Positions 10,221 to 26,745 of a stretch of 38,916 nucleotides of DNA are shown here, one piece after another. Position 1 is the first letter of the stretch. Every line of letters begins with the position of its first letter. The position numbers and the translations under genes are program-made. Under the pieces are notes generated by a model, which was not told the origin of the DNA, made no database searches, and saw only the letters and a program-made list of their open reading frames with translations. The stretch lies in contig PWEJ01000110.1 in the NCBI GenBank assembly GCA_003553485.1, positions 1 through 38,916 on the forward strand, in the 5' to 3' direction. Source of the DNA: Halanaerobiaceae bacterium (GTDB taxonomy: Bacteria; Bacillota; Halanaerobiia; Halanaerobiales; Halarsenatibacteraceae).

Positions 10221-10934
10221 ATGTCTGATAATCCAAGTCAAGACTTTCAATCATCAGGAGAATTAGCAAAAGAACTGGGCTTAAAAGAAGCTTTAACAAT
10301 AGGTGTTGGGACAATGGTTGGTGCAGGTATCTTTGTCCTGCCCAGATATGCTATTGAAATGGTAGGCCCTGGAGCTATTTTTACGTATATTTTAGCAGGG
10401 CTTATCTGTATTATAACAGCTAGCAGCATAGCAGAACTAGCAACGGGAATGCCGAAAAGTGGTGGAACCTATTCCTTTTTATCCAGATCATTAGGAAAAT
10501 TTGCCGGGACTATTTCTGGGTTATCCCTCTGGTTAAGCTTAACATTTGCTGTTTCCTTTTATTTATTAGGGTTTGGAGAATATTTAGCATTATTTATTCC
10601 AGTAAATGATACCATTCTGGCTTTAATCGCAGGAATATTTTTTACTTACATTAACTATATAGGAGCTAAAGAGACCGGAAAAACCCAGAATATAAATGTT
10701 GTAGATGGAATTATTTCTCAGACAAAAGAGGAAGATTATGAACTTATGATTGTTGGAGCTTCTAAAGAGTGGAGATTTAAAAACCTCTTATTTGGTTCAA
10801 TACCAGATTTAGTAGCTGAAGAAACCAACTGTTCTGTATTAATGGTTCGTCAGTATGGTTCCCAGCTTGAACTTGCTGAGACAGATTTGGAAGTTGATTT
10901 CGACGAGACTGATGAAAGCCCTGCGAAATTATAA
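10221..10934 (+). CDS. APC-family permease fused to UspA-like domain, with the middle deleted
   Basis: A 237-aa protein with a TAGGAGG site upstream of the ATG. Residues 1 to about 155 are the first helices of an amino acid-polyamine-cation permease (TIGVGTMVGAGIFVLP, then IAELATGMPKSGGTYSFLSR, and later YINYIGAKETGKTQNINV). From about residue 158 the sequence jumps to the end of a universal stress protein domain (EEDYELMIVGASKEW, then LLFGSIPDLVAEETNCSVLMV). Full APC-UspA fusions are expected to be about 600-750 aa with 12 helices; here the rest of the permease and the first part of the UspA domain are absent, yet the frame is open. It is probably a remnant of an in-frame deletion and unlikely to transport. 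It precedes trkA by 55 nt. Confidence 0.75.
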   Translation: MSDNPSQDFQSSGELAKELGLKEALTIGVGTMVGAGIFVLPRYAIEMVGPGAIFTYILAGLICIITASSIAELATGMPKSGGTYSFLSRSLGKFAGTISGLSLWLSLTFAVSFYLLGFGEYLALFIPVNDTILALIAGIFFTYINYIGAKETGKTQNINVVDGIISQTKEEDYELMIVGASKEWRFKNLLFGSIPDLVAEETNCSVLMVRQYGSQLELAETDLEVDFDETDESPAKL

Positions 10935-11662: not shown

Positions 11663-13019
11663 GTGAAAATATTTGGTTCTTCATCAAAAAATGCAATAGA
11701 TTTAACTCCAGCTAGAATAATTTTGTTAGGATATACAACGATAATCTTTCTGGGAACAATATTACTTTCTTTACCCATGGCTCGACAGGGGCCGGGTTCA
11801 GCTGATTTTATTGAAGCTTTATTTACCGCCACTTCGGCTGTTTGTGTTACCGGTTTAATTGTGGTAGATACGGCAACTTACTGGACTCTTTTTGGTCAGA
11901 TCACTATCTTGATTTTAATCCAGATCGGCGGTCTTGGTTTCATGACCTTATCAACGCTATCTTTTATGATTATTGGCAAAAGAATAACTTTCAGTGAGCG
12001 AGTATTAATAAAAGAAGATTTAGGACATTTAAATTATTCAGGATTAGTTAGACTGGTAAGATATGTGCTTATTTTAACCTTAAGTTTAGAAGCTATTGGT
12101 ACTCTGCTGTTATTTTTGAATTTTAGGCCTATCATGGATAATTTTAAAGCATTCTGGTATGCTTTATTTCATGCAGTCTCTGCCTTCAATAATGCTGGTT
12201 TCGATATCTTTGGTAATAGTTTAGAAGGTTTTACCACTGATATAGGTGTTAATATAACTATAATGAGTTTAATAATTTTTGGTGGCTTGGGCTTTACAGT
12301 TATCGCTGAATTTTTTAAAAAGTCCAGAAAAGTCCAGAGAAAATTTTCTTTACACACTAAATTGGTAGTATTTATGACTGTATTTTTACTATTCCTGGGG
12401 TTTTTGACTGTTTTGGGCTTGGAATATAATAATCCTGACACTCTGGGAGGACTGGATTGGCTTGGTAGAGTGACAGGGTCCTTTTTCCTGTCAGTAACCT
12501 CAAGAACAGCTGGTTTTAACACCGTGCCAACTGGTAATTTGCAAAATGGCACTTTATTTTTTGCAATTATCCTCATGTTTATAGGTGCTTCTCCCTGCTC
12601 TACTGGTGGAGGTGTAAAGACCACAACCATGGGAGTTTTTTATAACTATGTGATAACCTCAATCCGGGGAGATGAAGAGGTTTCATTTTTTTTCCAGGCG
12701 ATTAAGTTATAAAACAGTCAATCAAGCTGTAGCTATTATTTCTCTTTCAGGACTTTTAGTGGTAATAACCACCTTGATATTGTCGACTATTGAGCCCTTT
12801 TCCTTTATCGAAGTACTATTTGAATCTGTTTCAGCCTTTGCAACTGTGGGATTATCAACCGGTATCACCTCGGAACTTTCTTTTAACAGTAGAATTATGC
12901 TTATAATAACAATGTTAGCTGGAAGGATAGGCCCTCTGACCTTTTTTGTCTCTCTGGGTGACTTAAAACCTAAGAGCAAAAACATCCGTTATCCTAAAGA
13001 CGATTTGATGATAGGTTAA
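11663..13019 (+). pseudogene. ktrB: Potassium channel-transporter KtrB/TrkH with a frameshift at a T8 run
   Basis: Membrane subunit of the Ktr system. The first frame (11663-12712, 349 aa, GTG start) carries three of the four pore-filter loops (TATSAVCVTGL, HAVSAFNNAGFD, SRTAGFNTVPT). The fourth (ESVSAFATVGLSTG) lies in another frame that remains open to 13019. The shift is at eight consecutive T at 12686-12693; with seven T the frames join and give about 450 aa, the normal KtrB size. Without correction the product ends QAIKL and lacks the last pore-helix pair, so it should not conduct. Either a genuine mutation, a sequencing error in a homopolymer, or expression by slippage on the T run. It follows ktrA by 25 nt in one operon. 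Confidence 0.85.
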
Positions 13020-13095: not shown

Positions 13096-13839
13096 ATGAA
13101 AATAGTCGTTTCAGGAAAAGGTGGAGTGGGGAAGACAACAATATCAGCCAGCCTGGCCAGGTATTTAAAGGATAAAGGATTTCAGGTTTATGCCATTGAT
13201 GCTGATCCCGATGCTAATCTGGCTCGGACTTTAGGAATAAAAGATGATGTAAAACCCTTAGTCGAGTTAGAAGAAGTTATTGAGGAGAAGGTGGGGAAAA
13301 AGGGTAGCTTTTATAGCTTAAATCCCAATGTTGATAGTGTGGTGGAGGATTATTCTCTGCTCCATGATGGCATCAGATTTTTAAGGATGGGTGGCGTAAA
13401 AAAGGCTAGTTCAGGATGTTACTGCCCGGAAAACAGTTTCCTCAATTCCATTATGCGCAGTCTGGTATTTTCTCGAGATGAAGCTGTTATCCTGGATATG
13501 GGAGCTGGAATTGAGCACCTTACCCGGGGAACCTCTGCCGGCATGGATGTGATGTTGATCGTCTGTGAACCCAGCAAAGTAAGTCTTGATACCGCCAGAA
13601 CCATTGAAAACCTGGCTAAAGAAGGTGGAGTTAATAAAATTAAGTTTATAGCCAATAAAGTTCGCAGTGCCAAGGAAGAGGAGTTTTTACGTAATAATTT
13701 CACCGAAGAGGAACTCCTGGGTATAATCCCCTATAGTGAAGAGCTTGTACTGGAGGGTATATCTTCAGAGGATGACGGCAGTTTATTAACAGCTGAAGTA
13801 GCAGAACTGATGGCTAAATTAGATCTGGATGATATTTAA
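13096..13839 (+). CDS. cooC: CODH nickel-insertion ATPase CooC
   Basis: A 247-aa MinD/SIMIBI-class ATPase that helps insert nickel into carbon monoxide dehydrogenase. It begins with a deviant Walker A loop (GKGGVGKTT, about residues 7-15), followed by AIDADPDANLARTLG. The Cys-x-Cys in SGCYCPEN (about residue 112) is the metal-binding dimer motif characteristic of CooC. AAGGGAAG lies 6-8 nt before the ATG. It converges on the CODH operon (13924-17703, minus strand) and is separated from it by a hairpin at 13866-13888, so cooC has its own promoter. Confidence 0.93.
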   Translation: MKIVVSGKGGVGKTTISASLARYLKDKGFQVYAIDADPDANLARTLGIKDDVKPLVELEEVIEEKVGKKGSFYSLNPNVDSVVEDYSLLHDGIRFLRMGGVKKASSGCYCPENSFLNSIMRSLVFSRDEAVILDMGAGIEHLTRGTSAGMDVMLIVCEPSKVSLDTARTIENLAKEGGVNKIKFIANKVRSAKEEEFLRNNFTEEELLGIIPYSEELVLEGISSEDDGSLLTAEVAELMAKLDLDDI

Positions 13840-13923: not shown

Positions 13924-15186
13924 TTAGATAAAGCTGGTTAAATAGCTATTATTGAAGTCACTATTTAAGAGTTTATCCTTTAAGTCTTTAACATTGGTCT
14001 TTTTCTTAAGCAGTGATAAAAATATTCCTGAAGCAGAGATATCACCCAGGAGCACAAAGCCCACAATTCTGTCCTCCTGCAGATAAATCTTTCTGAGATA
14101 GCCCTCACCTTCTTTTTTTAAAACTTCTCCATTAAGCTCTCCCACTACCATCAATTTAAAATTTAGCTCCTTTAATGAATTCATGCTTAACATAGGCTGA
14201 TATTGCTGTTCCTGGCCAAGCATATTAAGCGCTGCTGTTCTACCGTGATTAACTGCAACTGGATGGAGACCGTGAGATTTTAATTCTCCGCTGAAAAAAT
14301 CTCTGGTTAGAGCTACATCCCCGGCAGCATAGATATGGTCAAAATTCGTCTCAAGTCGGCTGTTTACCGGAATACCCCAGTCGGTTTTTATGCTGGTACC
14401 ATCCAAAAACTCGATATTGGGTTTAACCCCGGTGGCAGCGATATAGATATCTCCCTGCAAGATTTGGCCTGAAGTTGTCTTTAAGCCGGTGATTTCTTCT
14501 TCCCCGAGGAATTCATTGCCTTCAGTATTGAGCAGCACATTAACCCCCTGAGACTCAAGATCTTTCACCACATAACTGGCTGTTTCTTTATCCAATAGCC
14601 GGGGCATTATCCAGCCGCGCCTATTTAATACCGAAGGCTTAATACCTAATTGAGCCAGGCAGAGAGCGATTTCCACCCCGATAAAACCTCCTCCCACTAT
14701 AATAGCCTGAGCTTCCTGTCCTTTTTCTTGGGCCAGGGCTTTAATTTTTTCAGTAGAAGAGAGGTTTTTAAAATTTAAAAGCCCTGGTTTATCGTGTCCG
14801 GTTATCACGCTGGAAATATGCAATGAGCTACCTGAAGCTATTAATAATTTATCGAAGTGATAATTGGAGTGCCTGGAGGTAAGAATATTATTCTCGGGAT
14901 CAAGCTCAATAACTGGTTCATTACGGTGTTCAACTACATGATACTTCTCAGCAAAATTTCGCCCCTTCCAAAAAAGAATATCCTCTTCGTCCTGTAAGAG
15001 GTATTCACCTAAAGCAGCAGGAGAATAGGGGGGAGAGTCCTCAGCTGAATAGAGGTGAATCTCCCCAGCAAAATTATTAGCTCGTAGGGTTTCTACCGCT
15101 GATACTCCAGCAGGTCCAGCTCCGATAATATGAATTTTTTCTTTGTCATCTGACAGCTTTGTAGATCGAGATCTATTTAAACTCAT
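13924..15186 (-). CDS. FAD/NAD-dependent oxidoreductase of the CODH operon
   Basis: A 420-aa flavoprotein of the NADH oxidase/rubredoxin reductase-like class. An N-terminal FAD fold (IHIIGAGPAGVSAVETL) is followed by a central NAD(P)H fold (AIIVGGGFIGVEIALCLAQ), the ATG motif (AATGVKPNIEFL) and the second FAD motif (HIYAAGDVALT). Its ATG overlaps the end of cooS by 4 nt, so the two are translationally coupled. A CooF-CooS-flavoprotein operon is a known arrangement in anaerobic bacteria that couples CO oxidation to NAD(P)H through the ferredoxin-like CooF. That role is inferred here from order and family. NADH versus NADPH preference is not readable. Confidence 0.88.
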   Translation of the reverse strand: MSLNRSRSTKLSDDKEKIHIIGAGPAGVSAVETLRANNFAGEIHLYSAEDSPPYSPAALGEYLLQDEEDILFWKGRNFAEKYHVVEHRNEPVIELDPENNILTSRHSNYHFDKLLIASGSSLHISSVITGHDKPGLLNFKNLSSTEKIKALAQEKGQEAQAIIVGGGFIGVEIALCLAQLGIKPSVLNRRGWIMPRLLDKETASYVVKDLESQGVNVLLNTEGNEFLGEEEITGLKTTSGQILQGDIYIAATGVKPNIEFLDGTSIKTDWGIPVNSRLETNFDHIYAAGDVALTRDFFSGELKSHGLHPVAVNHGRTAALNMLGQEQQYQPMLSMNSLKELNFKLMVVGELNGEVLKKEGEGYLRKIYLQEDRIVGFVLLGDISASGIFLSLLKKKTNVKDLKDKLLNSDFNNSYLTSFI

Positions 15187-17063
15187 ATCCCTAAAGCTTT
15201 CCTTTTATCTGCAATATGATTGATGATAAGCTCTGCTGCTTTTTGGGGGTCAGGCTCCACAGCAAAACTAGCTCCTACTATCTCCTGCAATTCAGAGCTT
15301 AAGAGGTTAACTACCTGCTGGCTGCCAAAAATCTTTGGCGGTGGACCTAAGACCGTGTAGACTCCAGAGGCGACAAAATAACTTCCGATGGTAACAGCTT
15401 TTTGAGAATACCATTCAGGAGCTGCTCCAGCTACTGGAAGTTGGTGGATGCCTACACCTAATTCTTTGGCCAGAGCACCCAGCAGCACTAAAATTCTGGA
15501 ACAGTCGACACAGGAGCCCATATGGAGAATTGGAGGCAGGTTTAAAGACTCTAGAACCGGGCGCAAACCTGGACCGGCCAGTTCACTGGCTTCAGGCTGT
15601 AGAAGGCCGGCTTTGCCTGAGGCTACAGCAGCACAACCAGTTTCTACCAGCAGAATATCATTTTTAATAAGTTCTCTGGCCAGGATCAGATGACCTTTAT
15701 CCTGTTTGATTTTAGGGTTGTTACAGCCAACTATCCCAACAGCTCCCTTTATTTGACCTTCTTTAATAGCCTCTAAAAGAGGTTCAGGACTGCCGCCAAG
15801 AGCCTGCAAAATTGCCTCCACAGAGAAACCAGCTGTCACTGGGGTGGCTTCACCAGGCAGGCTGACTCGGTCAGGATTTCTTTCTGGATAATTAGCTATA
15901 GCCCTTCTTATTATTTGTCGGGCAGTCTCCAGAGCGGTTTCAGGATGGAATTCTAGATGAGTAGCTCCTGGTATTTTTGACTTGCTGCTGGTGGTGATGA
16001 TCTCAGTGTGATAACAGTCAGCACTTTCAACCAGAGTAGGGAAGATACATTGATAATCAATAACAGTAGCTTCAACAGCCCCTGTAGCCAGCGCTAGTTC
16101 CTGGTCCAGCATGTTACCGGCCATGGGAATGCCCTGGCGCAGGAGTATCTCATTACCAGTACAGCAAAGTCCAACAATATTAATTCCCTTTGCTCCAGCA
16201 TCACGGGCCTGCTGTTTTAATTCTTCTTCTGCAGTGGCCTTGAGTATCATTTCTGATAATATAGAGTTATGTCCATGAACAATAATATTTACCATATCTT
16301 CTTCTATTACCGCTAGATTTATATTGCTTTCATTTATCTCCGGGGTGCCAAACATAACATCTCCCAGTTCAGTGGCCAGCATAGAACCTCCCCAGCCGTC
16401 GCCTAAGGCTGTCCTCAGGCCATGAAGTAACATGTTAGCTGCAGAGGCACCTACTCCCATATGAGTTCGGTGCATGGCTTCAACTATATCTCTATCGATG
16501 CTGCGGGGACTTATGCCTGCTTCCTCCCAGAGTTTAAGGGTTGCTTCCGGTGCTCTAGCGGTGAAACTTAAAGATTGAGAGCGAGTGCCAAATTCATCTA
16601 ACATTTTTTCTGCTAATTCAGCAGCAACTTCAAGGTCGGGTTTATCGGCGGAGTCAATGTTATAGATTTCAGCCAATCTTTTTAGCTTAGCACTATCGGT
16701 TATTTTATAACCGGGACTATCATTTTGAGCCATCTTATGGAAGGTCTCTAGTACTTCTCGGCCGTGGTCGGAGTGAGAAGCAGCACCGGCAGTAATGTCA
16801 GCTAAAAGATTACGAGCAACAATGAGGTCAGCATCAGCCCCACAAACACCTCGCCGGGGTCCTTCCTCAAAGGGGTCGGCCTGGCAGGGGCCCATAGAAC
16901 AGCGATTACAGCAGACACCAGTCTGGCCAAAGCCACATTGAGGCTGCTGAGCCAGTAATCTATCCCAGGCCGTCTCAAGGCCATCTTGATTGGCCTTATT
17001 TAAAGCAGCTTGAGAGAGTTTGTCTTCAGTTAAATCTTCTGGACGATTTTCTTTAAATTGCAT
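15183..17063 (-). CDS. cooS: Ni-dependent carbon monoxide dehydrogenase catalytic subunit CooS
   Basis: Cytoplasmic CODH, CO + H2O to CO2 + 2 e- + 2 H+, 626 aa, typical length. All metal ligands are visible. The N-terminal pattern has Cys 43 and 51 (D-cluster) plus 52, 55, 60 and 74 (B-cluster). C-cluster ligands are the His in VHGHNSI and the cysteines in GLCCTGNE, DYQCIFPT, VGCNNPK, ETGCAAVASG and MGSCVDCSR. A QKA lysine near the C-terminus corresponds to the acid-base region. This is the monofunctional CooS type, not the acetyl-CoA synthase-associated AcsA. cooF lies 4 nt upstream, the FAD/NAD oxidoreductase overlaps downstream, and cooC is nearby. Confidence 0.97.
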   Translation of the reverse strand: MQFKENRPEDLTEDKLSQAALNKANQDGLETAWDRLLAQQPQCGFGQTGVCCNRCSMGPCQADPFEEGPRRGVCGADADLIVARNLLADITAGAASHSDHGREVLETFHKMAQNDSPGYKITDSAKLKRLAEIYNIDSADKPDLEVAAELAEKMLDEFGTRSQSLSFTARAPEATLKLWEEAGISPRSIDRDIVEAMHRTHMGVGASAANMLLHGLRTALGDGWGGSMLATELGDVMFGTPEINESNINLAVIEEDMVNIIVHGHNSILSEMILKATAEEELKQQARDAGAKGINIVGLCCTGNEILLRQGIPMAGNMLDQELALATGAVEATVIDYQCIFPTLVESADCYHTEIITTSSKSKIPGATHLEFHPETALETARQIIRRAIANYPERNPDRVSLPGEATPVTAGFSVEAILQALGGSPEPLLEAIKEGQIKGAVGIVGCNNPKIKQDKGHLILARELIKNDILLVETGCAAVASGKAGLLQPEASELAGPGLRPVLESLNLPPILHMGSCVDCSRILVLLGALAKELGVGIHQLPVAGAAPEWYSQKAVTIGSYFVASGVYTVLGPPPKIFGSQQVVNLLSSELQEIVGASFAVEPDPQKAAELIINHIADKRKALGI

Positions 17064-17067
17064 TTAT

Positions 17068-17703
17068 TTATTCCTCCTTATTTTTTTCGCCTTGACTGGC
17101 TGGCAAAGGCCCCATTAGAGCCATTCTGTGTTGAATCTCCTGAAAAGCTCTGATATTAGCAGGTATAGCCTGGCTGGACTCACCGGCTGTTTCTAGAGTG
17201 GTTGCTATAGCTAATTTTTCTCTTCCTGCTGAGGAAATTTTGTTGATATCATCATATATGAGAGCTTCAGTGCGACAGGCAGCAGCACAGGCCGGAATTT
17301 TTCCTTGCTTTAGTCTCTCCAGACAGTCATCACACTTATAAGCTGAAGGTCCTTTTTGCTCCTCTAATTCCGGGAAATCAATAGCACTATAGGGACAGAC
17401 CATGGCACACATACCGCAGGATATACATCTTTCTCCCTGGACTAGGACAGAGTCAGTCTGTTCATCCCGATAAATAGCTCCTGTGGGACAGATATTATGA
17501 CAGGGGGCTGGTTTGCAGTGGCGACAACGGGCGGGGAAAGTGAGATAATCGATCCCCAATTTGACCTCCAGACGAGGAGGGGCTAAATTTTTAGCTGTCA
17601 GGGCTGATATTATATTACTATAACTGGAATGCTCAAGCACACAGGCTAATTCACAGTGGCGACAGCCCACACAGCGTTTGATATTAACATATACTGTTTT
17701 CAT
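17068..17703 (-). CDS. cooF: CooF-like polyferredoxin, electron carrier of CODH
   Basis: A 211-aa iron-sulfur protein with four [4Fe-4S]-type cysteine sets: CVGCRHCELAC (about residue 12), CRHCKPAPCHNICP, CISCGMCAMVCP, and CDDC with a later CAAAC. This is the CooF/HycB/DMSO-reductase B arrangement. It should take electrons from the CooS B/D clusters and pass them to the downstream FAD/NAD oxidoreductase or other acceptors. Ribosome site CTAGGAGGT is 6 nt before the ATG. First gene of the CODH operon, divergent from the ferredoxin at 17933. A palindrome ACTTCTTGAAGT at 17757-17768 in the shared upstream region could be a regulator site; that is speculative. Confidence 0.93.
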   Translation of the reverse strand: MKTVYVNIKRCVGCRHCELACVLEHSSYSNIISALTAKNLAPPRLEVKLGIDYLTFPARCRHCKPAPCHNICPTGAIYRDEQTDSVLVQGERCISCGMCAMVCPYSAIDFPELEEQKGPSAYKCDDCLERLKQGKIPACAAACRTEALIYDDINKISSAGREKLAIATTLETAGESSQAIPANIRAFQEIQHRMALMGPLPASQGEKNKEE

Positions 17704-18220: not shown

Positions 18221-20089
18221 TTAATTTACAGCATCTGCTAGAGCTTCCAGAAATCCCTCAGAAGAATAGGTTGCTCCTGAAATAGTATCCTTTTCGATAG
18301 ATTGGGTGGCAATGACATTTTCTATCAGCTTATCGAAGGCTGGTTCAGCATTATCAGGAACATCTTCATGGGCTAACACCTGTATTTCTGTAATTAAACC
18401 ATCTTCTACTGTAACCTCAATTTCAATATCATCATAAAAGCCAGAGCCTATACCGGTGTAAGTTCCATCTGAGATGGTAAAATCAGGCTCTACATCATCT
18501 TCGGGCTCTACAGTCACATCTCTGTCAGCTAAGGCTCTTTCTACAGCTGTTATAATGGCCTCGCTTGTTTTGGTAGCACCGGAGAGCACATCAACATCGG
18601 TATCCTGATTATCAATAATTGCCTGAGGAATTTTATCAAAGGCCGGTTCACCAATATCTTCAGACTCTGAGTGTTCAATAATCTCTATTGAAGAAATATC
18701 TCCATCAGAGCCGATAGTCACCTCAACTACAAGTTCTCCACCATAACCTTCAGCGGAACCGGTCAAAACCTGCTCTCCATCATCCTCTTCTTCGGTAACT
18801 TCTGCTTCTGCTTCTTCTAAAGCTTTGTGGACTGCTTCCATGATAGCCTCACTGGTCTCTGTTACCCCGGAGACTACATCTACATCAGGGCTTTGCGTAG
18901 CAATAATTTCCTCTGGAATTTCTTCCAGGGCGGGCTCGGCAAAACCTTCAGTTTCTTTATGCTCTAAAATGTCGATGGCTATTATCTCGCCGGCAGCAAT
19001 CTCTACCTCGACAACTAATTCCCCGCCATAACCTTCAGCAGAAGTGGTTATCTTTTGACTTTCTTCCTCCACAGGTTCTTCAGGCTCAGCAGTGGGATCG
19101 AAGCCAACGTCATCCAGGATTTTTTGCACTGCCTCCATGATAGCTTCACTGGTGACTGTAGCTCCAGAAACAACATCTACCTCAGTGCTTTGAGCTGCGA
19201 TAATATCCTGAGGAGTTTCTTCTAAAGCAGGCTCGGCGATACCTTCGGTTTCACTGTGTTCGATAACTTCAATAGAAAATATCTCCTGTTGGCTAAGCTC
19301 AACCTCCACTGTCAGATCACCACCATAGGCCTCAACAGTAGCGGTTTCTATCATTGTTTCTTCCTCCACAGGTTCTTCAACTTCTTCATCGGGGTCCCAT
19401 TCTGCTTCAGCTAGGGCAATCTCCACAGCCTCCATGATAGCTTCACTGGTGACTGTAGCTCCAGAGACAGCTTCCACATCAGTGCTCTGAGCTGCAATTA
19501 TATCCTGAGGAGTTTCTTCTAAGGCCGGATCAGCAATATCCTCTGTCTCTTCGTGGTCAGTGACCTGGATATTTAAAATTTCTTCCGGTGTTAACAGCAC
19601 TTCCACCGTTAAATCACCACCGTAGGCTTCCACAGTAGCCGTATAGGTTTCTGTATCAGGCATATCAACTTCTTCTTCAGGATCAGCCTGGGCCAGGGCA
19701 TCATCCACTGCAGCTAAAAAACCTTCACTGGTGGCAGTGGCGCCAGAGACCATATCAACATCGGTGCTCTGAGCTTCCATAACAGCTTCAATTAAATCTT
19801 CAAAGGCAGGAATGGCAAAATCATCGGTCTCCTGATGCTCCAGGACCTCTATATATACAATTTCGCCATCTTTTATAGAGACTTCAACTTCCATTTCTCC
19901 GCCATAACCCTCAGCTACTCCAATAAATTTTTCAGCTTCATCAACAGGCTCCTCTTCAACGGCAGGGGAGGGCTCGGCTTCTGCTGTTGGAGTAGGCATC
20001 TGATAATCCTCTATGCCATAGATAAAGATAAAAGCAAAGACCAGTATGACTGTAAATATTATACTCAAAGTTATATTCTTTTTGAACAT
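18221..20089 (-). CDS. Membrane-anchored protein with six tandem FMN-binding (RnfG/NqrC-type) domains
   Basis: About 622 aa from the ATG at 20089 (MFKKN); a GTG at 20104 sits directly on the GGAGG and is the alternative start. One N-terminal membrane segment (residues 5-24) is followed by an acidic Pro-rich linker. Six repeats of about 80-100 residues then follow, each with a GYGG or AYGG turn, an H-x-E-(T/S) strand end, a PA(F/L) helix and a Ser-Gly-Ala-Thr site. The predicted flavinylated threonines are at about 118, 212, 311, 410, 506 and 607; repeat 4 reads SGVT, and repeat 6 has a divergent front half. In RnfG, NqrC and similar proteins ApbE links FMN to this Thr by a phosphodiester bond, so the protein could hold five or six FMNs on the outer face of the membrane. 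It is the last gene of the redox cluster and precedes the terminator at 18145. No ApbE gene is visible. Covalent flavin transfer is family knowledge; electron-wire function is inferred. Confidence 0.9.
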   Translation of the reverse strand: MFKKNITLSIIFTVILVFAFIFIYGIEDYQMPTPTAEAEPSPAVEEEPVDEAEKFIGVAEGYGGEMEVEVSIKDGEIVYIEVLEHQETDDFAIPAFEDLIEAVMEAQSTDVDMVSGATATSEGFLAAVDDALAQADPEEEVDMPDTETYTATVEAYGGDLTVEVLLTPEEILNIQVTDHEETEDIADPALEETPQDIIAAQSTDVEAVSGATVTSEAIMEAVEIALAEAEWDPDEEVEEPVEEETMIETATVEAYGGDLTVEVELSQQEIFSIEVIEHSETEGIAEPALEETPQDIIAAQSTEVDVVSGATVTSEAIMEAVQKILDDVGFDPTAEPEEPVEEESQKITTSAEGYGGELVVEVEIAAGEIIAIDILEHKETEGFAEPALEEIPEEIIATQSPDVDVVSGVTETSEAIMEAVHKALEEAEAEVTEEEDDGEQVLTGSAEGYGGELVVEVTIGSDGDISSIEIIEHSESEDIGEPAFDKIPQAIIDNQDTDVDVLSGATKTSEAIITAVERALADRDVTVEPEDDVEPDFTISDGTYTGIGSGFYDDIEIEVTVEDGLITEIQVLAHEDVPDNAEPAFDKLIENVIATQSIEKDTISGATYSSEGFLEALADAVN

Positions 20090-20179
20090 GGCTGGACAGC
20101 TCACCTCCTATTACTTTACCATCTTAAATTTATTTTTCAATCTTTTGTCTTAGCAGATCTTATTTTTGAAAAAATCTGC

Positions 20180-20917
20180 TTATACTTTTTCTTTCTCCTT
20201 TTTTTCACTGCTGAAAAAATCTGGCAGTTTAATCCTGCCGGGGCAGACAAAGGAACAGAGACCACAGCGGATACAATCATCAGGAGAAAGTCGAGCCAAT
20301 AATTCTTCCTGTTCAAACTTTACCGCCTCCATGATTAGCACGGGATAAAGATTATTGGGGCAGGCTTCAATACAATAGCCACACCTAATACAATCCTTGG
20401 GCTCACCGGAATATGAACCGCTCTCCTTGGGATATTTGGTCTTGGACTCATCAGAATCGTAGGCAAAATGCCTGAGAATAGGAAGCTTATCATGTTTTTT
20501 TGTAACATTGCTGTATATTTTGCGGAATTTTTCCGGGCTAATCCCCATTATCTCATAACGATGACCTAATTCCTGTAATTCGCAATCACCGGCCGAATCA
20601 CACATCACGCAATTACACTCATGCTCGCTTAACATAAGATCAATTAAATTACGGCGATGCCTTTCTAATTCCTCATCAAAGGCCACAACTTCCATACCCT
20701 CTTCGACCTCAGTTGTACAGGCAGGTTTTGGCCATTCGCTACCATTAATTTTTACCACACAGAGACGACAGGCAGCGGTGGGAGAGAGGCGAGGATGATA
20801 ACAGAGACCTGGTATATCAATTTCATGTTCCCAGGCCGTTTTTAACAGATTTGCCCCTTCCTCCGCTTTGATCTTTTTGTTATCTATGGTTATAGTAACC
20901 TTATTCTTTGCTGGCAT
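20180..20917 (-). CDS. NuoG-type iron-sulfur domain fused to RnfC-type ferredoxin domain
   Basis: A 245-aa iron-sulfur protein with two parts of different origin. The N-terminal half matches the start of NuoG, HydA or FDH: a [2Fe-2S] plant-type domain (Cys 39, 50, 53, 67) and a His-Cys3 [4Fe-4S] set (His 99, Cys 103, 106, 112). The C-terminal part carries CIRCGYCIEACP (176-186) and CIRCGLCSFVCP (215-225), separated by a helical LYPVLIMEAVK segment. This layout and spacing belong to the C-terminal ferredoxin domain of RnfC rather than to NuoG. It probably relays electrons between the NuoF-like flavin subunit and the membrane/catalytic fusion protein. It follows the nuoF-like gene by 22 nt, with a GAAAGGAGG site before the ATG. 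Confidence 0.88.
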   Translation of the reverse strand: MPAKNKVTITIDNKKIKAEEGANLLKTAWEHEIDIPGLCYHPRLSPTAACRLCVVKINGSEWPKPACTTEVEEGMEVVAFDEELERHRRNLIDLMLSEHECNCVMCDSAGDCELQELGHRYEIMGISPEKFRKIYSNVTKKHDKLPILRHFAYDSDESKTKYPKESGSYSGEPKDCIRCGYCIEACPNNLYPVLIMEAVKFEQEELLARLSPDDCIRCGLCSFVCPGRIKLPDFFSSEKKEKEKV

Positions 20918-20939: not shown

Positions 20940-22844
20940 TCACTTCTGGGCCACTCTTTTAACTTTTTCTGAACCCTCTTGCTGTCCCGGAATAACTGCT
21001 ATAGCCTCAAAGGGACATTCCTCGATGCAGGTTCCACAGCTAATACAAATTTTATTATCTATAACATAGGGATCACCGCCAGGCTCGCCAGCAATGGCAT
21101 CGACGGGACAGGCTCTTTTGCAGCGATCACAGGCTTTACATTCTTCAGGATCAACTTCATAATAGATGAGCTCAGGACATACTCCAGCCGGACAGGCTAA
21201 ATCATGAATATGAGCTTCATACTCATCTCTAAAGTATTCGATTGTAGAAAGCACCGGGTTAGGGGCAGAATCGCCTAAACCGCAGAGGGCAGTTTTCTTA
21301 ATGGTCTTAGAAATATCCTCTAGTTTAATCAGATCCTGTTCGGTACCCAGCCCCTCAGTAATGCGGGTAAGAATATCTAACATTTTGGGAATACCATTTC
21401 TGCAGGGAAGACACTTTCCGCAGGATTCATCTTTGAGAAAGTCCAAAAAGAACTTGGCCACATCTACCATGCAGGTATCTTCATCCATTACCACCATTCC
21501 GCCGGAACCCATCATAGAGCCAGCCTCAGAAAGCTCGTCAAAATCGACCTTTAAATCAAAGAGGTCTTCAGGGATACAACCTCCGGAGGGCCCGCCGGTC
21601 TGAACTGCCTTAACCTTTTTGCCCCCGGGAATTCCTCCGCCGATATCAAAGACAATTTTTCTCAGAGTAATTCCCATCGGGACTTCAATTAAACCGGTGT
21701 TATTTACCTTACCTACCAGAGAAAAAATCTTGGCCCCTTTACTATTTTCTGTACCTATTGACTTAAACCATTCTGCTCCATTCATAATGATTAGAGGAAC
21801 ATTACCGAAGGTTTCTACGTTGTTTAACACCGTGGGTTTACCGAAAAGCCCCTGCTGGACTGAACGCGGTGGGGTCTGACGGGGCATAGGTCTTTTACCT
21901 TCAATGGAATGCATTAAAGCTGTGGACTCTCCAGCCACGAAGGCTCCGGCTCCTTCAGCCACTTCCAGATCAAAGGAGAAGTCTGTTCCCATGATGTTAT
22001 CTCCCAGCAAGCCGTATTCTCTGGCCACCTCAATGGCCTGCTTGGTATGTTTTACAGCTAAAGGATATTCAGCTCGAACATAGATATAGCCCTGATGAGC
22101 TCCAATGGCGTAGGCAGCGATGATCATTCCCTCAATCACCAGATGGGGGTTACCCTCCAGGATACTGCGGTCCATGTAAGCACCGGGGTCTCCTTCATCA
22201 GCGTTGCAGGCCAGATACTTAGGTTCAGCTTCCTCCTGGCGACAATATTTCCACTTTTTACCGGCAGGGAATCCTGCTCCACCACGCCCTCTTAAATTAG
22301 CTTCTATTGTTTCTTCAATTACATCTTCCGGGCTCATTTCATATAATGTTTTGGCCAGAGCTGAATAACCATCAACGTTAAAATAATCGTCGATTTCAGT
22401 GGGCTCAATAAAACCATTATTTTTAAATACCAGTCTTTTTTGGTGCTTATAGAAGGGTATATCCTGTTCCTTTTCAATTTTTTGCTGTGATTCAGGATCA
22501 GTATATAGTAATCTATCCACTGATTTTTTATTTTCAATTGTTTCTTCCAGGATTTCAGGGATGTCCTCTGGTTCTAATCTGATGTAAAAGGAACCCTGCG
22601 GTCTAATGACCATGAGAGGACCCTGCTCACAAAACCCCTGGCATCCAGTTATTTTAATACCTATAGTATCACTTAAATTTCTTTTTTCAACTTCAGACTT
22701 TAATTTATCGATAACCTTTTGACAGCCTGAACCCTGGCAACCAGTGCCGCCACACATGGTGATAAAACTTTCTTTTTCTTCTTGCTTTTTTTGAGCAGCC
22801 TGCTGTAACGCTTTTAATTTTTCCGGGGAGTCAATTCTTTCCAT
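20940..22844 (-). CDS. nuoF: NuoF-like NADH/FMN subunit with extra iron-sulfur domains
   Basis: A 634-aa NADH-oxidising (or NAD-reducing) flavoprotein. It has an N-terminal thioredoxin-like [2Fe-2S] domain (CGGTGCQGSGC near 31-41, then CQGFC at 68-72). The NuoF core follows, with the GRGGAGFPAGKKW nucleotide/FMN motif (about 186-198) and the [4Fe-4S] site CGKCLPC with a later CGLGDSAPNP. Two C-terminal ferredoxin motifs (CKACDRCKRACP and CISCGTCIEECP) complete it. This long form is that of HydB and the NADH subunits of bifurcating hydrogenases and formate dehydrogenases, so electron bifurcation between NADH and ferredoxin is possible. No [FeFe]-hydrogenase gene is present; the partner here is the FdhA-like fusion. 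It overlaps the nuoE-like gene by 1 nt. Confidence 0.94.
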   Translation of the reverse strand: MERIDSPEKLKALQQAAQKKQEEKESFITMCGGTGCQGSGCQKVIDKLKSEVEKRNLSDTIGIKITGCQGFCEQGPLMVIRPQGSFYIRLEPEDIPEILEETIENKKSVDRLLYTDPESQQKIEKEQDIPFYKHQKRLVFKNNGFIEPTEIDDYFNVDGYSALAKTLYEMSPEDVIEETIEANLRGRGGAGFPAGKKWKYCRQEEAEPKYLACNADEGDPGAYMDRSILEGNPHLVIEGMIIAAYAIGAHQGYIYVRAEYPLAVKHTKQAIEVAREYGLLGDNIMGTDFSFDLEVAEGAGAFVAGESTALMHSIEGKRPMPRQTPPRSVQQGLFGKPTVLNNVETFGNVPLIIMNGAEWFKSIGTENSKGAKIFSLVGKVNNTGLIEVPMGITLRKIVFDIGGGIPGGKKVKAVQTGGPSGGCIPEDLFDLKVDFDELSEAGSMMGSGGMVVMDEDTCMVDVAKFFLDFLKDESCGKCLPCRNGIPKMLDILTRITEGLGTEQDLIKLEDISKTIKKTALCGLGDSAPNPVLSTIEYFRDEYEAHIHDLACPAGVCPELIYYEVDPEECKACDRCKRACPVDAIAGEPGGDPYVIDNKICISCGTCIEECPFEAIAVIPGQQEGSEKVKRVAQK

Positions 22845-23344
22845 TATTCTCCCTCCTCTCGTAATTCAGTTACCAGTTGTTGAACTTCTTTTTTAGAAAT
22901 TTTCCCGTGATATTCCCCATCAACTATAATTACCGGGGCTACAGCACAGGTTCCAACACAACGAGCTGTTTCTAAAGAAAACTTTTGGTCTGGAGTTACC
23001 TCTCCCACCTGAATACCCAGTGTTCTTTCCAGTTCAGAGACGAGGAGAGGTGCTCCCCTAACATGACAGGCAGTTCCTGTGCAGACCACTATATGATAAT
23101 CTCCTAAAGGCTTTAGACGAAATTCGTTATAGAATGAAGCTATACCATAGAGCGAGACTAAAGGGACGGACAGCTTCTGAGAAGCCCTGATCAGGGCTTT
23201 CTCAGGAAGCCAGCCATAAAACTTCTGTATATCCTGGAGTACAGGAAGAAGAGGAGATTTTTGTTGATCTTTACTGGCCAGATTTTCGGCAATAATTTTA
23301 TCTATAGCTTTCAACTCTTCAGTTTCAAAAGCCATAATTTTCAC
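22844..23344 (-). CDS. nuoE: NuoE-like thioredoxin-fold [2Fe-2S] subunit
   Basis: A 166-aa subunit that partners NuoF in complex I, bifurcating hydrogenases and NAD-linked formate dehydrogenases. A helical start (LPVLQDIQKFYGWLPEKAL) precedes the [2Fe-2S] domain with its four cysteines in CTGTACHVRGAP and CVGTCAVAP. It follows the large RnfD-FdhA gene by 17 nt, with a GGAGGTG site before the start, and its stop shares a base with the nuoF-like start. It forms the electron input/output module with the next gene. Confidence 0.94.
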   Translation of the reverse strand: MKIMAFETEELKAIDKIIAENLASKDQQKSPLLPVLQDIQKFYGWLPEKALIRASQKLSVPLVSLYGIASFYNEFRLKPLGDYHIVVCTGTACHVRGAPLLVSELERTLGIQVGEVTPDQKFSLETARCVGTCAVAPVIIVDGEYHGKISKKEVQQLVTELREEGE

Positions 23345-23361: not shown

Positions 23362-26300
23362 TTATGAAACAATCAGTTTTTCTTCTTGAGATATTTTTTC
23401 GATCTGACAGGGTGTGCTCTTTAATGCTGGCACTCCGGAATCCTGATCAAAAAGATCACTGGTTAATTTATTGACTGGAGATTCGGCAAAGTGAATGGGG
23501 ATAAAGACCTCTCCAGTTGCAACTCTATCTGTTATACGTGCTTTCACCGTTATCTGTCCCTGTTTAGAGTTTACTTTAACATCTTCATTATCTGAAATAT
23601 TGAGCTTATTAGCATCATCAGGGTTTATCTCTAAATAGGGCTCATTGACCTGAGCAGTTAAAGCCTCTGATCTTCTGCTCATAGAACCAGTTCTAATGTG
23701 GTAAAGACTCCGGCCAGTTATTAAAGTGAAGGGATACTCCTCATCGGTTTTTACACTGGGCGTAAATTCTACCGGCTGGAAAACAGCTTTACCATCATCA
23801 TGCATAAACTCATCTTTGTAGAGAAAATCAGTTCCATTTTTATCGGGTTTTACCGGCCACTGGAGACCTTCAGTCCAGAGGTTACGATAATTTACTCCCT
23901 GGTAGAGAGGAGTTAATTCAGATATTTCCTGCATGATATCAGCAGGTTTATCATAATCTAAATCAAAACCCAGTTCTTTGCCAATGGCAATTAAAATCTC
24001 CCAATCAGATTTAGCCTTTCCTGGTGGATCCATGGCTTTGTTAATACACTGGATTCTTCTTTCAGTGTTGGTATAGGTTCCTTCTTTTTCCACAAAGGTT
24101 GCTGCTGGCAGGACTACATCGGCTTTTTCAGCAGTTTCACTTAAGAAGGGATCGATAACAGCTAAAAAGTCCAGATTTTCTAAGGCCATATCGGCTTTCA
24201 TTTTATTGGGTTCTGAGAGGGAAGGGTTATCTCCCATTATCAGCATGGCCTTGATATTGCCAGCCATGGCTTCACTCATCATGTCAGTGGCAGTTAAGCC
24301 TTTAGCTTCTGGAAGTTCTCTCTGCCAGTAGCTGGAGAATTTATCCCGTACTTCTTTATCTTCAATACTCTGATAGCCAGGTAAATAATCAGGTAGAGAG
24401 CCCATATCGCTGGCTCCCTGGACGTTATTTTGCCCCTGGAGAGAATTAATACCAGTTGAAGCCCGGCCAACATTACCTGTTATCAGACTGAGATTTGCCA
24501 GGGATAATACATTTTTAGTGCCTGATTCATGCTGGGTCATACCGGTAGCAAAGGCTATAGAACCCTTATCTGCTTCAGCAAACAATTTAGCAGCAGCAAC
24601 AATTTTTTCAGTGCTAACTCCAGTGATTTCCGCCACCTTATCTGGAGTATAGTCATTAAGGGTTTCTTTTAAGTCGGCAAATCCTTTGGTTTTTTCGGCA
24701 ATAAACTTTTTATCAGTAAGGTCGTTATCCAAAATTACTTTCATAAGGCCGTTAATGAGAGCAGTGTCAGTGCCATTTTTCGGCCTGATCCAGTGAGTCG
24801 CCCATTTAACCAGTTCAATCTCTCGGGGATCTATAACTATCAGATCAGCTCCATGATTACGGACAGCATTTTTAATATATTGGGCTATTACTGGATGGGC
24901 AGCAGTGGTGTTTGATCCGGCAACCAGGATACAATCAGCATTTTCAAACTCGGCAATTGAGTTTGTCATGGCTCCACAACCAAAGACCTTTTCTAAGGCT
25001 TTAGCAGAAGAAGCCTGACAGAGTCGATTAGAGGTATCTATATTATTGCTGCCAATACCTGCTCGCAGTAATTTCTGGAAAAGATAATTTTCTTCGTTGG
25101 TACTCTTAGCAGAGGCAAAACCTGCTATAGCCTGAGCGCCATGTTCTGCTTTTACTTTTTTAATATTGTCGGCAATTTCTTTTATAGCTCGTTTCCAGTT
25201 GACTGGAATCAATTCACCATCTTTTCTAATTAGAGGATACTTTAACCGATCATCAGAATTTACATAGGTATGCCCAAATCTACCCTTTATACAGAGAGAA
25301 CCGAAGTTAGGCTGGGCATCAACAGCTTCAACTCTAATTAATTTATTATCTTTTGTATAGACGTTCATCTGACAACCTGTACCGCAATTACTACAGGTAG
25401 TTCTTACCTTATTGTCTGCTTCCCACTTTCGGACAGGTTCCGTGGAGATTTTCTCTGTAATTGCTCCAGTGGGACATAGTTCAAAGCAGCCACCGCAACC
25501 ATCACATTCAGAAAATCCTCTTTCACCGAGACCGGCCGTGGTAAATATGTTTGAACCTCGATCTCCTAAACCTAAAATACCCTTTTCCTGTATCTCATCA
25601 CAGGCCTTAACGCAGCGCTGGCACATGATGCATTTTGAAGCATCATAGACTAACACCGGCGAAGTGGTATCCTTGGTCAGGTCGATATCTTTACCAGGGC
25701 TGAAAGACTTTTTGCCCCTGCCAAAAGGTTCTTTGAGTCCTATTCTATCGATATAGGGAGCATAGGGGTTTAATATAACTAGAGCTACAAAGGAAGCCCC
25801 ATATAAGCCGATTAAAGTAAGTCCCATAGTTAAGAGAGCCAGTAAACCACCAAAGATATATTGTCCTTTTAAAGTGGCCGGAGTTGTCTGAGGCTCTGTG
25901 GCCATGTAAAATCCTAAAAAGATGACACTACCAGTAAAGACGTGGAAAGCAATCCTGGTAATTACAGGGCCGCCAGTAGCCAGGCCAAGTATAGCTGCCA
26001 GGATAGTCATGCCTCCAAGAAAACTCAAAGTTATTCTCCATTTCAGTTTAATCCAGTAGGCTAAAAGGACTCCTGAGAAGAGAGTAGCTATTCCTGAAGC
26101 TCCACCAATCCAGCCATGACGTTTCCAGAGAAAGAGACTCTCAGTAACGCTTAAATTTTCAGTGCCATAAAAGCCCATAACCTCACCGAGTTCCATGGCT
26201 CCCTGAAAACCTTCACCGGTGAAGAGATTATAGGCTAGATGTTCAGGATAAAATAACATCCCTGAGGCCAAAGAATCAGGCAGAAACCACATAAAGGTTA

Positions 26301-26745
26301 TAATGAATAAAACTAGCATTTTTGCTCCAGCGGCTGGATTAATAACCTTTCTGCCCACATATTTTTCCTGGGCCCATTTGAAGCCTATCATAGTTACTGC
26401 CGAGACGATTGCTGTAATCCAATAGGGAGATAATTCTCCCATACAGAGGCCAACAATCATACCAGCAACCAGTGGAGAATAGGGTGAATCATAGGTTGTT
26501 TCTCCTAGTTTTGTCCTGTCCTGGGTTTCTAATTTTTTAATAATGAAATGACAGATTACTGCAGTGACTACAGCAGATAAAATGTTGAAGAGAGCCATGG
26601 TGCCCATAGCTAATATTGCTGCCAGGGCTGGAATACACATGGCTATAAAAGTGCGCAGCATTACCTGATCCTCTGTCAGCTCAGAATGTTTTAAAGGCTC
26701 AGGTTTTTGGCGCAGTGCTAAGTCTTTTTGCTTGGGTTCTTGCAT
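23362..26745 (-). CDS. RnfD/NqrB-like membrane domain fused to FdhA-like molybdopterin oxidoreductase
   Basis: A 1127-aa fusion. Residues 30-335 form about nine or ten hydrophobic helices resembling RnfD/NqrB (VINPAAGAKM, GWIGGASGIATL, FYMATEPQTTPATLKG). I see no Ser/Asp-Gly-Ala-Thr flavinylation site in this part. Residues 368-430 are a ferredoxin domain (Cys 372, 375, 378, 382; 414, 417, 420, 424). Residues 448 onward are a molybdopterin oxidoreductase of the formate dehydrogenase type: [4Fe-4S] Cys 451, 454, 458, 485; candidate Mo/W ligand Cys 576; and an FdhA-typical GQNNVQGASDMGSLPDYLPG stretch. The catalytic His expected after Cys 576 is Gln 577. The likely reaction is formate/CO2 at the membrane, unproven. 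First gene of a tight five-gene operon; the ribosome site is an unusual GGGGGGT. Confidence 0.9.
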   Translation of the reverse strand: MQEPKQKDLALRQKPEPLKHSELTEDQVMLRTFIAMCIPALAAILAMGTMALFNILSAVVTAVICHFIIKKLETQDRTKLGETTYDSPYSPLVAGMIVGLCMGELSPYWITAIVSAVTMIGFKWAQEKYVGRKVINPAAGAKMLVLFIITFMWFLPDSLASGMLFYPEHLAYNLFTGEGFQGAMELGEVMGFYGTENLSVTESLFLWKRHGWIGGASGIATLFSGVLLAYWIKLKWRITLSFLGGMTILAAILGLATGGPVITRIAFHVFTGSVIFLGFYMATEPQTTPATLKGQYIFGGLLALLTMGLTLIGLYGASFVALVILNPYAPYIDRIGLKEPFGRGKKSFSPGKDIDLTKDTTSPVLVYDASKCIMCQRCVKACDEIQEKGILGLGDRGSNIFTTAGLGERGFSECDGCGGCFELCPTGAITEKISTEPVRKWEADNKVRTTCSNCGTGCQMNVYTKDNKLIRVEAVDAQPNFGSLCIKGRFGHTYVNSDDRLKYPLIRKDGELIPVNWKRAIKEIADNIKKVKAEHGAQAIAGFASAKSTNEENYLFQKLLRAGIGSNNIDTSNRLCQASSAKALEKVFGCGAMTNSIAEFENADCILVAGSNTTAAHPVIAQYIKNAVRNHGADLIVIDPREIELVKWATHWIRPKNGTDTALINGLMKVILDNDLTDKKFIAEKTKGFADLKETLNDYTPDKVAEITGVSTEKIVAAAKLFAEADKGSIAFATGMTQHESGTKNVLSLANLSLITGNVGRASTGINSLQGQNNVQGASDMGSLPDYLPGYQSIEDKEVRDKFSSYWQRELPEAKGLTATDMMSEAMAGNIKAMLIMGDNPSLSEPNKMKADMALENLDFLAVIDPFLSETAEKADVVLPAATFVEKEGTYTNTERRIQCINKAMDPPGKAKSDWEILIAIGKELGFDLDYDKPADIMQEISELTPLYQGVNYRNLWTEGLQWPVKPDKNGTDFLYKDEFMHDDGKAVFQPVEFTPSVKTDEEYPFTLITGRSLYHIRTGSMSRRSEALTAQVNEPYLEINPDDANKLNISDNEDVKVNSKQGQITVKARITDRVATGEVFIPIHFAESPVNKLTSDLFDQDSGVPALKSTPCQIEKISQEEKLIVS

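Follow-up and report, generated by a model that had tools for sequence, protein, structure and literature searches.

An RnfD-like membrane domain fused to a degenerate formate dehydrogenase domain in a probable NADH-linked electron export operon

A stretch of 38,916 nucleotides from contig PWEJ01000110.1 of a Halanaerobiaceae bacterium (assembly GCA_003553485.1), called the window here, carries on its minus strand a gene for a protein of 1127 amino acids in which an RnfD/NqrB-like membrane domain is joined to a ferredoxin-like region and to a domain of the formate dehydrogenase (FDH) alpha type (Table 1). The gene begins at an ATG at 26745, with a ribosome-site-like GGGGGG stretch just ahead. 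Behind it lie genes for NuoE-like, NuoF-like and NuoG-like subunits and for an extracytosolic protein with six domains that bind flavin mononucleotide (FMN). A first-pass annotation had recognised the fusion as a single uninterrupted frame, with no mention of its strand, and had read it as an FDH whose active site is tied directly to an Rnf-type membrane subunit. The frame and both domain assignments are borne out by the data below; the catalytic reading is not.

The membrane part lies within the NqrB/RnfD family. Residues 15-342 match the full profile PF03116 (NQR2_RnfD_RnfE; Pfam scan, E 1e-38), hhalign pairs them with canonical RnfDs at 99.7%, and a predicted model of residues 1-350 (predicted local distance difference test score, pLDDT, of 78) reaches Z scores of 26-30 to RnfD/NqrB chains, with the next fold family at about 14. 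The nearest solved structures of this part are the RnfD chains 7zc6_D, 9eri_D and 8ahx_D. The NCBIfam RnfD model gives 102 bits, under its cut-off of 207, and the nqrB model is not among the best 25 NCBIfam families for the fusion. In the C-terminal half we found the Pfam families Molybdop_Fe4S4, Molybdopterin and Molydop_binding; its nearest solved structures are formate dehydrogenases, the best match in the PDB being an F420 formate dehydrogenase (E 3.5e-177). The Fdh-alpha model TIGR01591 scores 810 bits on the fusion, against a cut-off of 666, and the NuoG model TIGR01973 scores 258 bits, under its cut-off of 470. Judged by these profile and structure matches, the protein joins the RnfD and FDH families, and its C-terminal domain is FDH, not NuoG. 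The proposed cytoplasmic placement of this domain also agrees with the Rnf structure of Acetobacterium woodii, in which the N- and C-terminal loops of RnfD sit in the cytosolic RnfC subunit (PMC11889175).

Misassembly at the junction is ruled out because the identical uninterrupted fusion recurs in independent genomes: four from the Halanaerobiaceae (G002, G004, G005 and G006, whose RnfD part is 68-76% identical to the window copy) and several metagenome-assembled genomes (MAGs) from the Spirochaetaceae. The fusion was found in five of the eight genomes seen from the Halanaerobiaceae family, and among 398 genomes drawn from the phylum it was limited to that of the window. When about 85,000 species genomes were scanned for the RnfD part by way of short conserved peptides, so that distant copies may escape, the matches were two MAGs from the Halanaerobiaceae (G002 and G006) and four from the Spirochaetaceae/Spirochaetales; the spirochaete sample names T1Sed, B1Sed10 and CSSed10 are those of soda-lake sediment datasets (PMC6146748). 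In trees, the RnfD domains and the molybdenum (Mo) domains of the fusions each form one clade with full support. This supports a single origin and would fit a fusion that arose once and was later passed from one phylum to the other. A tblastn search of plasmids with the fusion-type RnfD domain found only ordinary RnfDs at about 24% identity, and a comparison made without a PF00175-type NQR/RNF-like protein found no sister group of this domain outside the fusions. In the open-licence papers searched, we found no description of an RnfD/NqrB-FDH fusion.

Table 1. Features of the fusion gene and its operon in the window
Feature	Coordinates	Strand	Basis
Fusion gene, 1127 aa: RnfD/NqrB-like membrane domain, ferredoxin dicluster, degenerate FDH alpha domain	23362..26745	-	Single frame; same fusion in other genomes
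RnfD/NqrB-like membrane domain, residues 15-342	25720..26703	-	Pfam, hhalign, predicted model
Asn136, equivalent to A. woodii N123 (non-covalent riboflavin contact), kept	26338..26340	-	Alignment; PMC11889175
Met184 at the FMN-attachment Thr (A. woodii T156; [ST]xAT motif)	26194..26196	-	Alignment
Glu284 at the riboflavin-contact Asp (A. woodii D249); Glu in every fusion	25894..25896	-	Alignment; PMC11889175
Ferredoxin-like region, two [4Fe-4S] sites, residues 363-430	25456..25659	-	Pfam ferredoxin/Fer4_Nqo3 families
FDH alpha-type domain, residues 446-1112 (to 1115)	23410..25410	-	[4Fe-4S], molybdopterin and dinucleotide-binding domains
Cys576-Gln577: Mo-ligand Cys kept, catalytic His replaced by Gln	25015..25020	-	Alignment with FDHs
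Gln770 at the substrate Arg position (LQGQNNVQG)	24436..24438	-	Alignment with FDHs
NuoE/HydC-like [2Fe-2S] subunit	22844..23344	-	PF01257; ligands conserved
NuoF/HydB-like NADH/FMN subunit, N-terminal [2Fe-2S], C-terminal 2x[4Fe-4S]	20940..22844	-	Profile matches, ligands
NuoG N-terminal/HoxU-like iron-sulfur subunit, RnfC-like C-terminal 2x[4Fe-4S]	20180..20917	-	Profile matches, ligands
Membrane-anchored extracytosolic protein, six FMN_bind domains, RnfG-like	18221..20104	-	PF04205 x6, TIGR01947 rnfG

The formate site was compared between nine readable fusions (seven complete copies and two cut by contig ends) and 30 free-standing FDHs, of which 26 come from the class, two more belong to G004 and G005, and the last two to the spirochaete genomes that carry the fusion. 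The catalytic His that follows the Cys or selenocysteine is absent from all nine fusions, which have CQ, CD, CE or NQ at this point, and present in every control (UH or CH); likewise, the substrate Arg of the RGQ motif is Gln or Lys in 9/9 fusions and Arg in 30/30 free FDHs. Specifically, the window fusion has RLCQASS and LQGQNNVQG, and the window genome's own selenocysteine FDH (contig C58, protein P0002), one of the controls, has RLUHSST and LRGQSNVQG. Other fusions have RLCDIPS/LQGQNNIQG, RLCQTSS/LQGQNNAQG, RNCQGKT/LKGQINAQG or RINQAGG/LKDQNNDQG, and those of the spirochaetes RYC[EQ]APS/LQGQNNSQG. In the FDH of Rhodobacter capsulatus the equivalent Arg is the presumed binding place of formate and CO2; in nitrate reductases, Met and Thr occupy the His and Arg positions, and exchanging the two was among the changes that gave the R. 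capsulatus enzyme nitrate reductase activity (PMC10385643). The fusions fit neither the His/Arg nor the Met/Thr pattern. A separate FDH is present in four fusion-bearing Halanaerobiaceae genomes. That of the window genome, P0002 (L029:272-4450; L numbers denote loci), is a protein of 1392 amino acids with an in-frame TGA at residue 850, an N-terminal [2Fe-2S] domain and a GltD/DPD-like FAD-NAD domain, adjoined by NuoF and NuoE genes; this FDH is NAD(P)-linked and is unusual in that a pyridine-nucleotide reductase domain is inserted in it.

The [4Fe-4S] ligands of the FDH domain (C451, C454, C458 and C485) are intact in all seven complete copies, and throughout the protein the iron-sulfur (Fe-S) ligand Cys are conserved save for column 417, where some copies have Asp or Asn instead of Cys. 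Of 250 FDH-invariant columns, 192 are retained in the window fusion and 155 in that of G006, compared with the 97-100% that single FDHs retain of the columns invariant in the remaining FDHs (leave-one-out control). The G006 fusion has Asn in place of the Mo-ligand Cys and no longer has the GSN and DPR motifs. Among genomes G000, G004 and G005, the fused Mo domains are 56-61% identical, the true FDHs 74-79% and the RnfD halves 68-80%, which we read as a partial release of the Mo domain from constraint. Even so, this domain is no pseudogene, as all parts of the fusion are under purifying selection (Mo domain omega about 0.1-0.16 by NG86, values that are no more than indicative, as dS is near saturation). 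In comparisons across genera and phyla, the better conserved half is generally that of RnfD (59-80% identity, against 41-61% for the Mo domain), which contains long invariant stretches too.

The RnfD half is itself altered at a flavin site. In A. woodii Rnf, where electrons pass via RnfD and Na+ via RnfA/E, RnfD holds one FMN covalently on T156 and a non-covalent riboflavin touched by N123 and D249 (PMC11889175). The attachment Thr is Met or Leu in all nine fusions, compared with Thr in all seven control RnfDs from the same organisms and in both RnfDs from the PDB, so the fused domain is not a standard Rnf subunit. The genomes compared here also contain a second type of RnfD fusion, in which a canonical RnfD is in frame with FMN_bind domains (up to 1253 amino acids) next to RnfC; it occurs at L034:9439-11868 (window genome, contig C168), L039:6662-10423, L040:8691-12278, L041, L042, L043 and L044, and the FMN-Thr is retained in the three that were checked. 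Multi-flavinylated RnfG is already known.

The order fusion, NuoE, NuoF, NuoG-N and multi-FMN_bind protein is shared by the window, G004 and G005, and by a Spirochaetaceae contig (L047) on which the FMN_bind-like gene is cut by the contig end; an exported FMN-binding protein accompanies most copies. The Cys ligands of the NuoE-, NuoF- and NuoG-N-like subunits are conserved throughout. In the NuoF-like subunit the domains are arranged as in HydB-type subunits, with [2Fe-2S] at the N-terminus followed by the FMN/NADH domain and by 2x[4Fe-4S] at the C-terminus, and residues 172-241 of the NuoG-N-like subunit match TIGR01945 rnfC with 62.8 bits. In the window, the last protein has an N-terminal hydrophobic segment and five SGAT and one SGVT attachment motifs ([ST]G[AV]T). 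ApbE, the enzyme that attaches such FMNs, is encoded elsewhere in the window genome, as are canonical Rnf clusters; the operon itself contains no RnfA, RnfB, RnfE or full RnfC. The fusion of G002 (L037/L045:4162-7761) carries an extra C-terminal 2x[4Fe-4S] segment that is 46% identical to the end of NuoF, as if NuoF had been lost from this operon and its tail captured by the fusion. A divergent gene of about 610-630 amino acids lies upstream of the fusion in G002 and the spirochaetes (L045:1682-3550; L047:4220-6049; L049:33-1880) and may encode a regulator: the G002 protein is a sigma-54 activator with CBS and PAS domains, the L047 protein has no Pfam match, and neither spirochaete protein has an NCBIfam match.

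Judging by the partner genes, electrons on the cytosolic side are exchanged with NADH and not with formate. We consider it probable that the operon encodes a membrane-tethered NADH dehydrogenase that exports electrons through the RnfD-like domain to extracytosolic flavins, with the disabled FDH domain as scaffold and wire. NADH would reduce the FMN on the NuoF-like subunit, and electrons would then pass along the Fe-S clusters of NuoE, NuoF and NuoG-N and the ferredoxin and FDH-type clusters of the fusion. They would enter the RnfD domain at the non-covalent flavin pocket on the cytoplasmic side, where the RnfC-like dicluster in the NuoG-N subunit may deliver them, and would go on from there to the covalent flavins that the multi-FMN protein carries outside. 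The direction of flow, NADH as donor, the role of the pocket and the final acceptor are what we infer from the gene content. Because there is no RnfA/RnfE pair, ion pumping is not expected, and the HydB-type order of the NuoF-like subunit suggests that bifurcation with ferredoxin may be possible.

Several features argue for this exporter: the five-gene order, the losses of His, Arg and the FMN-Thr, the retained Asn136 and Fe-S ligands, the variable residue after the Mo-ligand Cys, the absence of that Cys from G006 although NuoE, NuoF and NuoG-N persist there, the faster evolution of the Mo domain under purifying selection, ApbE and the single clades of both domains. Other features weigh against it. 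The Mo-ligand Cys is kept in 8/9 fusions, so the cofactor may still bind; the riboflavin pocket is changed in the fusions, with Lys in all of them at the N120 position and Glu for D249; the G006 operon consists of the first four genes only, without an FMN-binding gene after the fusion, and that of G002 has the fusion and NuoG-N without NuoE or NuoF; and a full-length AlphaFold model built from 7 sequences was poor (pLDDT 56) and was not used.

The retained Cys, together with purifying selection and the majority of FDH-invariant columns kept in the window copy, could also indicate a retooled Mo or tungsten enzyme that acts on another substrate, with the Cys as metal ligand, Gln or acidic neighbours and the cofactor still bound. 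We regard this as unlikely, since the residue after the Cys varies (Q, D or E) in a way that fits neither FDH nor nitrate reductase, since the fused Mo domain evolves faster than true FDH, and since G006 has lost the Cys, GSN and DPR yet keeps NuoE, NuoF and NuoG-N. Less likely again is an NADH:quinone reductase in which the RnfD/NqrB-like domain reduces a membrane quinone and the FMN protein is incidental. NqrB is the quinone-side subunit of NQR, and the window genome encodes UbiA/MenA-like prenyltransferases, one of them MenA-like and beside an RnfC-RnfD pair and a polyprenyl diphosphate synthase (contig C93, L031:3278-8327; no other Rnf subunits seen adjacent); however, the MenA matches lie under curated cut-offs, the membrane domain scores as RnfD rather than NqrB, and an FMN_bind gene stands behind the NADH genes in two phyla. 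The loss of cofactor residues from both halves might instead suggest an inert RnfD anchor carrying a decaying FDH relic, but this is very improbable given the better conservation of the RnfD half, purifying selection on all parts, and an operon and Fe-S ligands kept across two phyla. Least credible is the functional FDH of the first-pass annotation, for despite the Fdh-alpha score, the retained invariant columns and the Mo-ligand Cys, the His and Arg, the latter at the presumed place of formate, are replaced in every fusion and in no control, and four genomes with the fusion have a separate FDH; the RnfD domain, for its part, lacks the flavinylation Thr of a standard Rnf subunit.

The dead FDH-like domain of NuoG is regarded as an inheritance of complex I, and the operon described here appears to be a separate, younger case. 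As a tentative extension, for which we judge the chances to fall a little short of even, it may show that an NADH input module like that of complex I arose a second time and independently: catalysis would have been lost from a soluble FDH complex, which kept its Fe-S wire and became fused to an RnfD-type membrane domain, giving a dedicated, possibly bifurcating NADH-to-outside exporter that ends in a multi-FMN protein and has spread among Halanaerobiaceae and Spirochaetaceae in soda lakes. Because live FDH paralogues occur in the same genomes and decay is graded among relatives, the step from loss of catalysis to gain of wiring is directly testable. The exporter would also add a new cytosolic input module to transmembrane flavin-based electron exporters. 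In addition, these results counsel caution in annotation, as an Fdh-alpha match well over its curated cut-off can fall on proteins without a formate site.

Elsewhere in the window, a carbon monoxide dehydrogenase cluster lies just downstream of the operon (CooF-like, CooS and FAD-NAD oxidoreductase genes at 13924-17703 on the minus strand; a CooC-like gene at 13096-13839 on the plus strand). A link between the two was considered and dropped, as these genes are not behind the operon in G004 or G005. TrkH (11663-13019) is split into two overlapping frames of 349 and 115 amino acids that match successive parts of one Pfam profile, through a frameshift or sequencing error, and in a short open reading frame at 10221-10934 the first third of an amino-acid permease is followed by the second half of a universal stress domain, so that it looks like a permease-Usp protein with its central part removed.

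Comparison with known systems places the operon among several families. Cytosolic NAD-dependent FDH complexes (FdhA with NuoE/NuoF-type subunits; here C58, P0002) have the same subunit set and are the nearest family of the C-terminal half, but their active sites still have Sec/Cys-His and Arg, and they lack a membrane domain. The Rnf complex (RnfABCDGE) shares the RnfD fold, an RnfG-like FMN protein and an RnfC-like Fe-S dicluster; it differs in having RnfA, RnfB, RnfE, full RnfC and the FMN-Thr of RnfD. In complex I, the FDH-like molybdopterin domain of NuoG has no FDH catalysis and acts as scaffold and wire, and its N-module resembles the window operon in combining NuoE, NuoF and an Fe-S-rich subunit with such a domain. 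However, the window domain is nearest to FDH alpha (810 versus 258 bits), its NuoG-like parts are spread over two genes, and it is joined to an RnfD-type membrane module where complex I has a quinone-reducing one. The likeness to NuoG would be functional rather than one of sequence, with the role of scaffold and wire reached independently. The closest parallel is with NQR/RNF-like systems (Meheust et al. 2021, PMC8238504). By definition, these have a fusion of an RnfD-like domain with a PF00175 NAD-binding domain, and a gene for FMN_bind or ApbE close by. There, too, the C-terminus of an NqrB/RnfD-like domain is joined to a cytosolic oxidoreductase, an exported FMN_bind (RnfG/NqrC-like) protein is a neighbour, and one-way NAD(P)H-to-outside flow is proposed (PMC8238504, PMC10979944); the RnfD-like subunit lacks the flavinylation Thr, as in the fusions, and Huang et al. 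(2024, PMC10979944) propose that a flavin carried by the RnfG-like partner reaches the non-covalent site. The window fusion differs in its ferredoxin and degenerate FDH alpha domains, separate NuoE, NuoF and NuoG-N and six-FMN partner. As the Pfam scan of the fusion (P0001) found no PF00175 domain, we regard it as a variant of the NQR/RNF-like system rather than a strict member.

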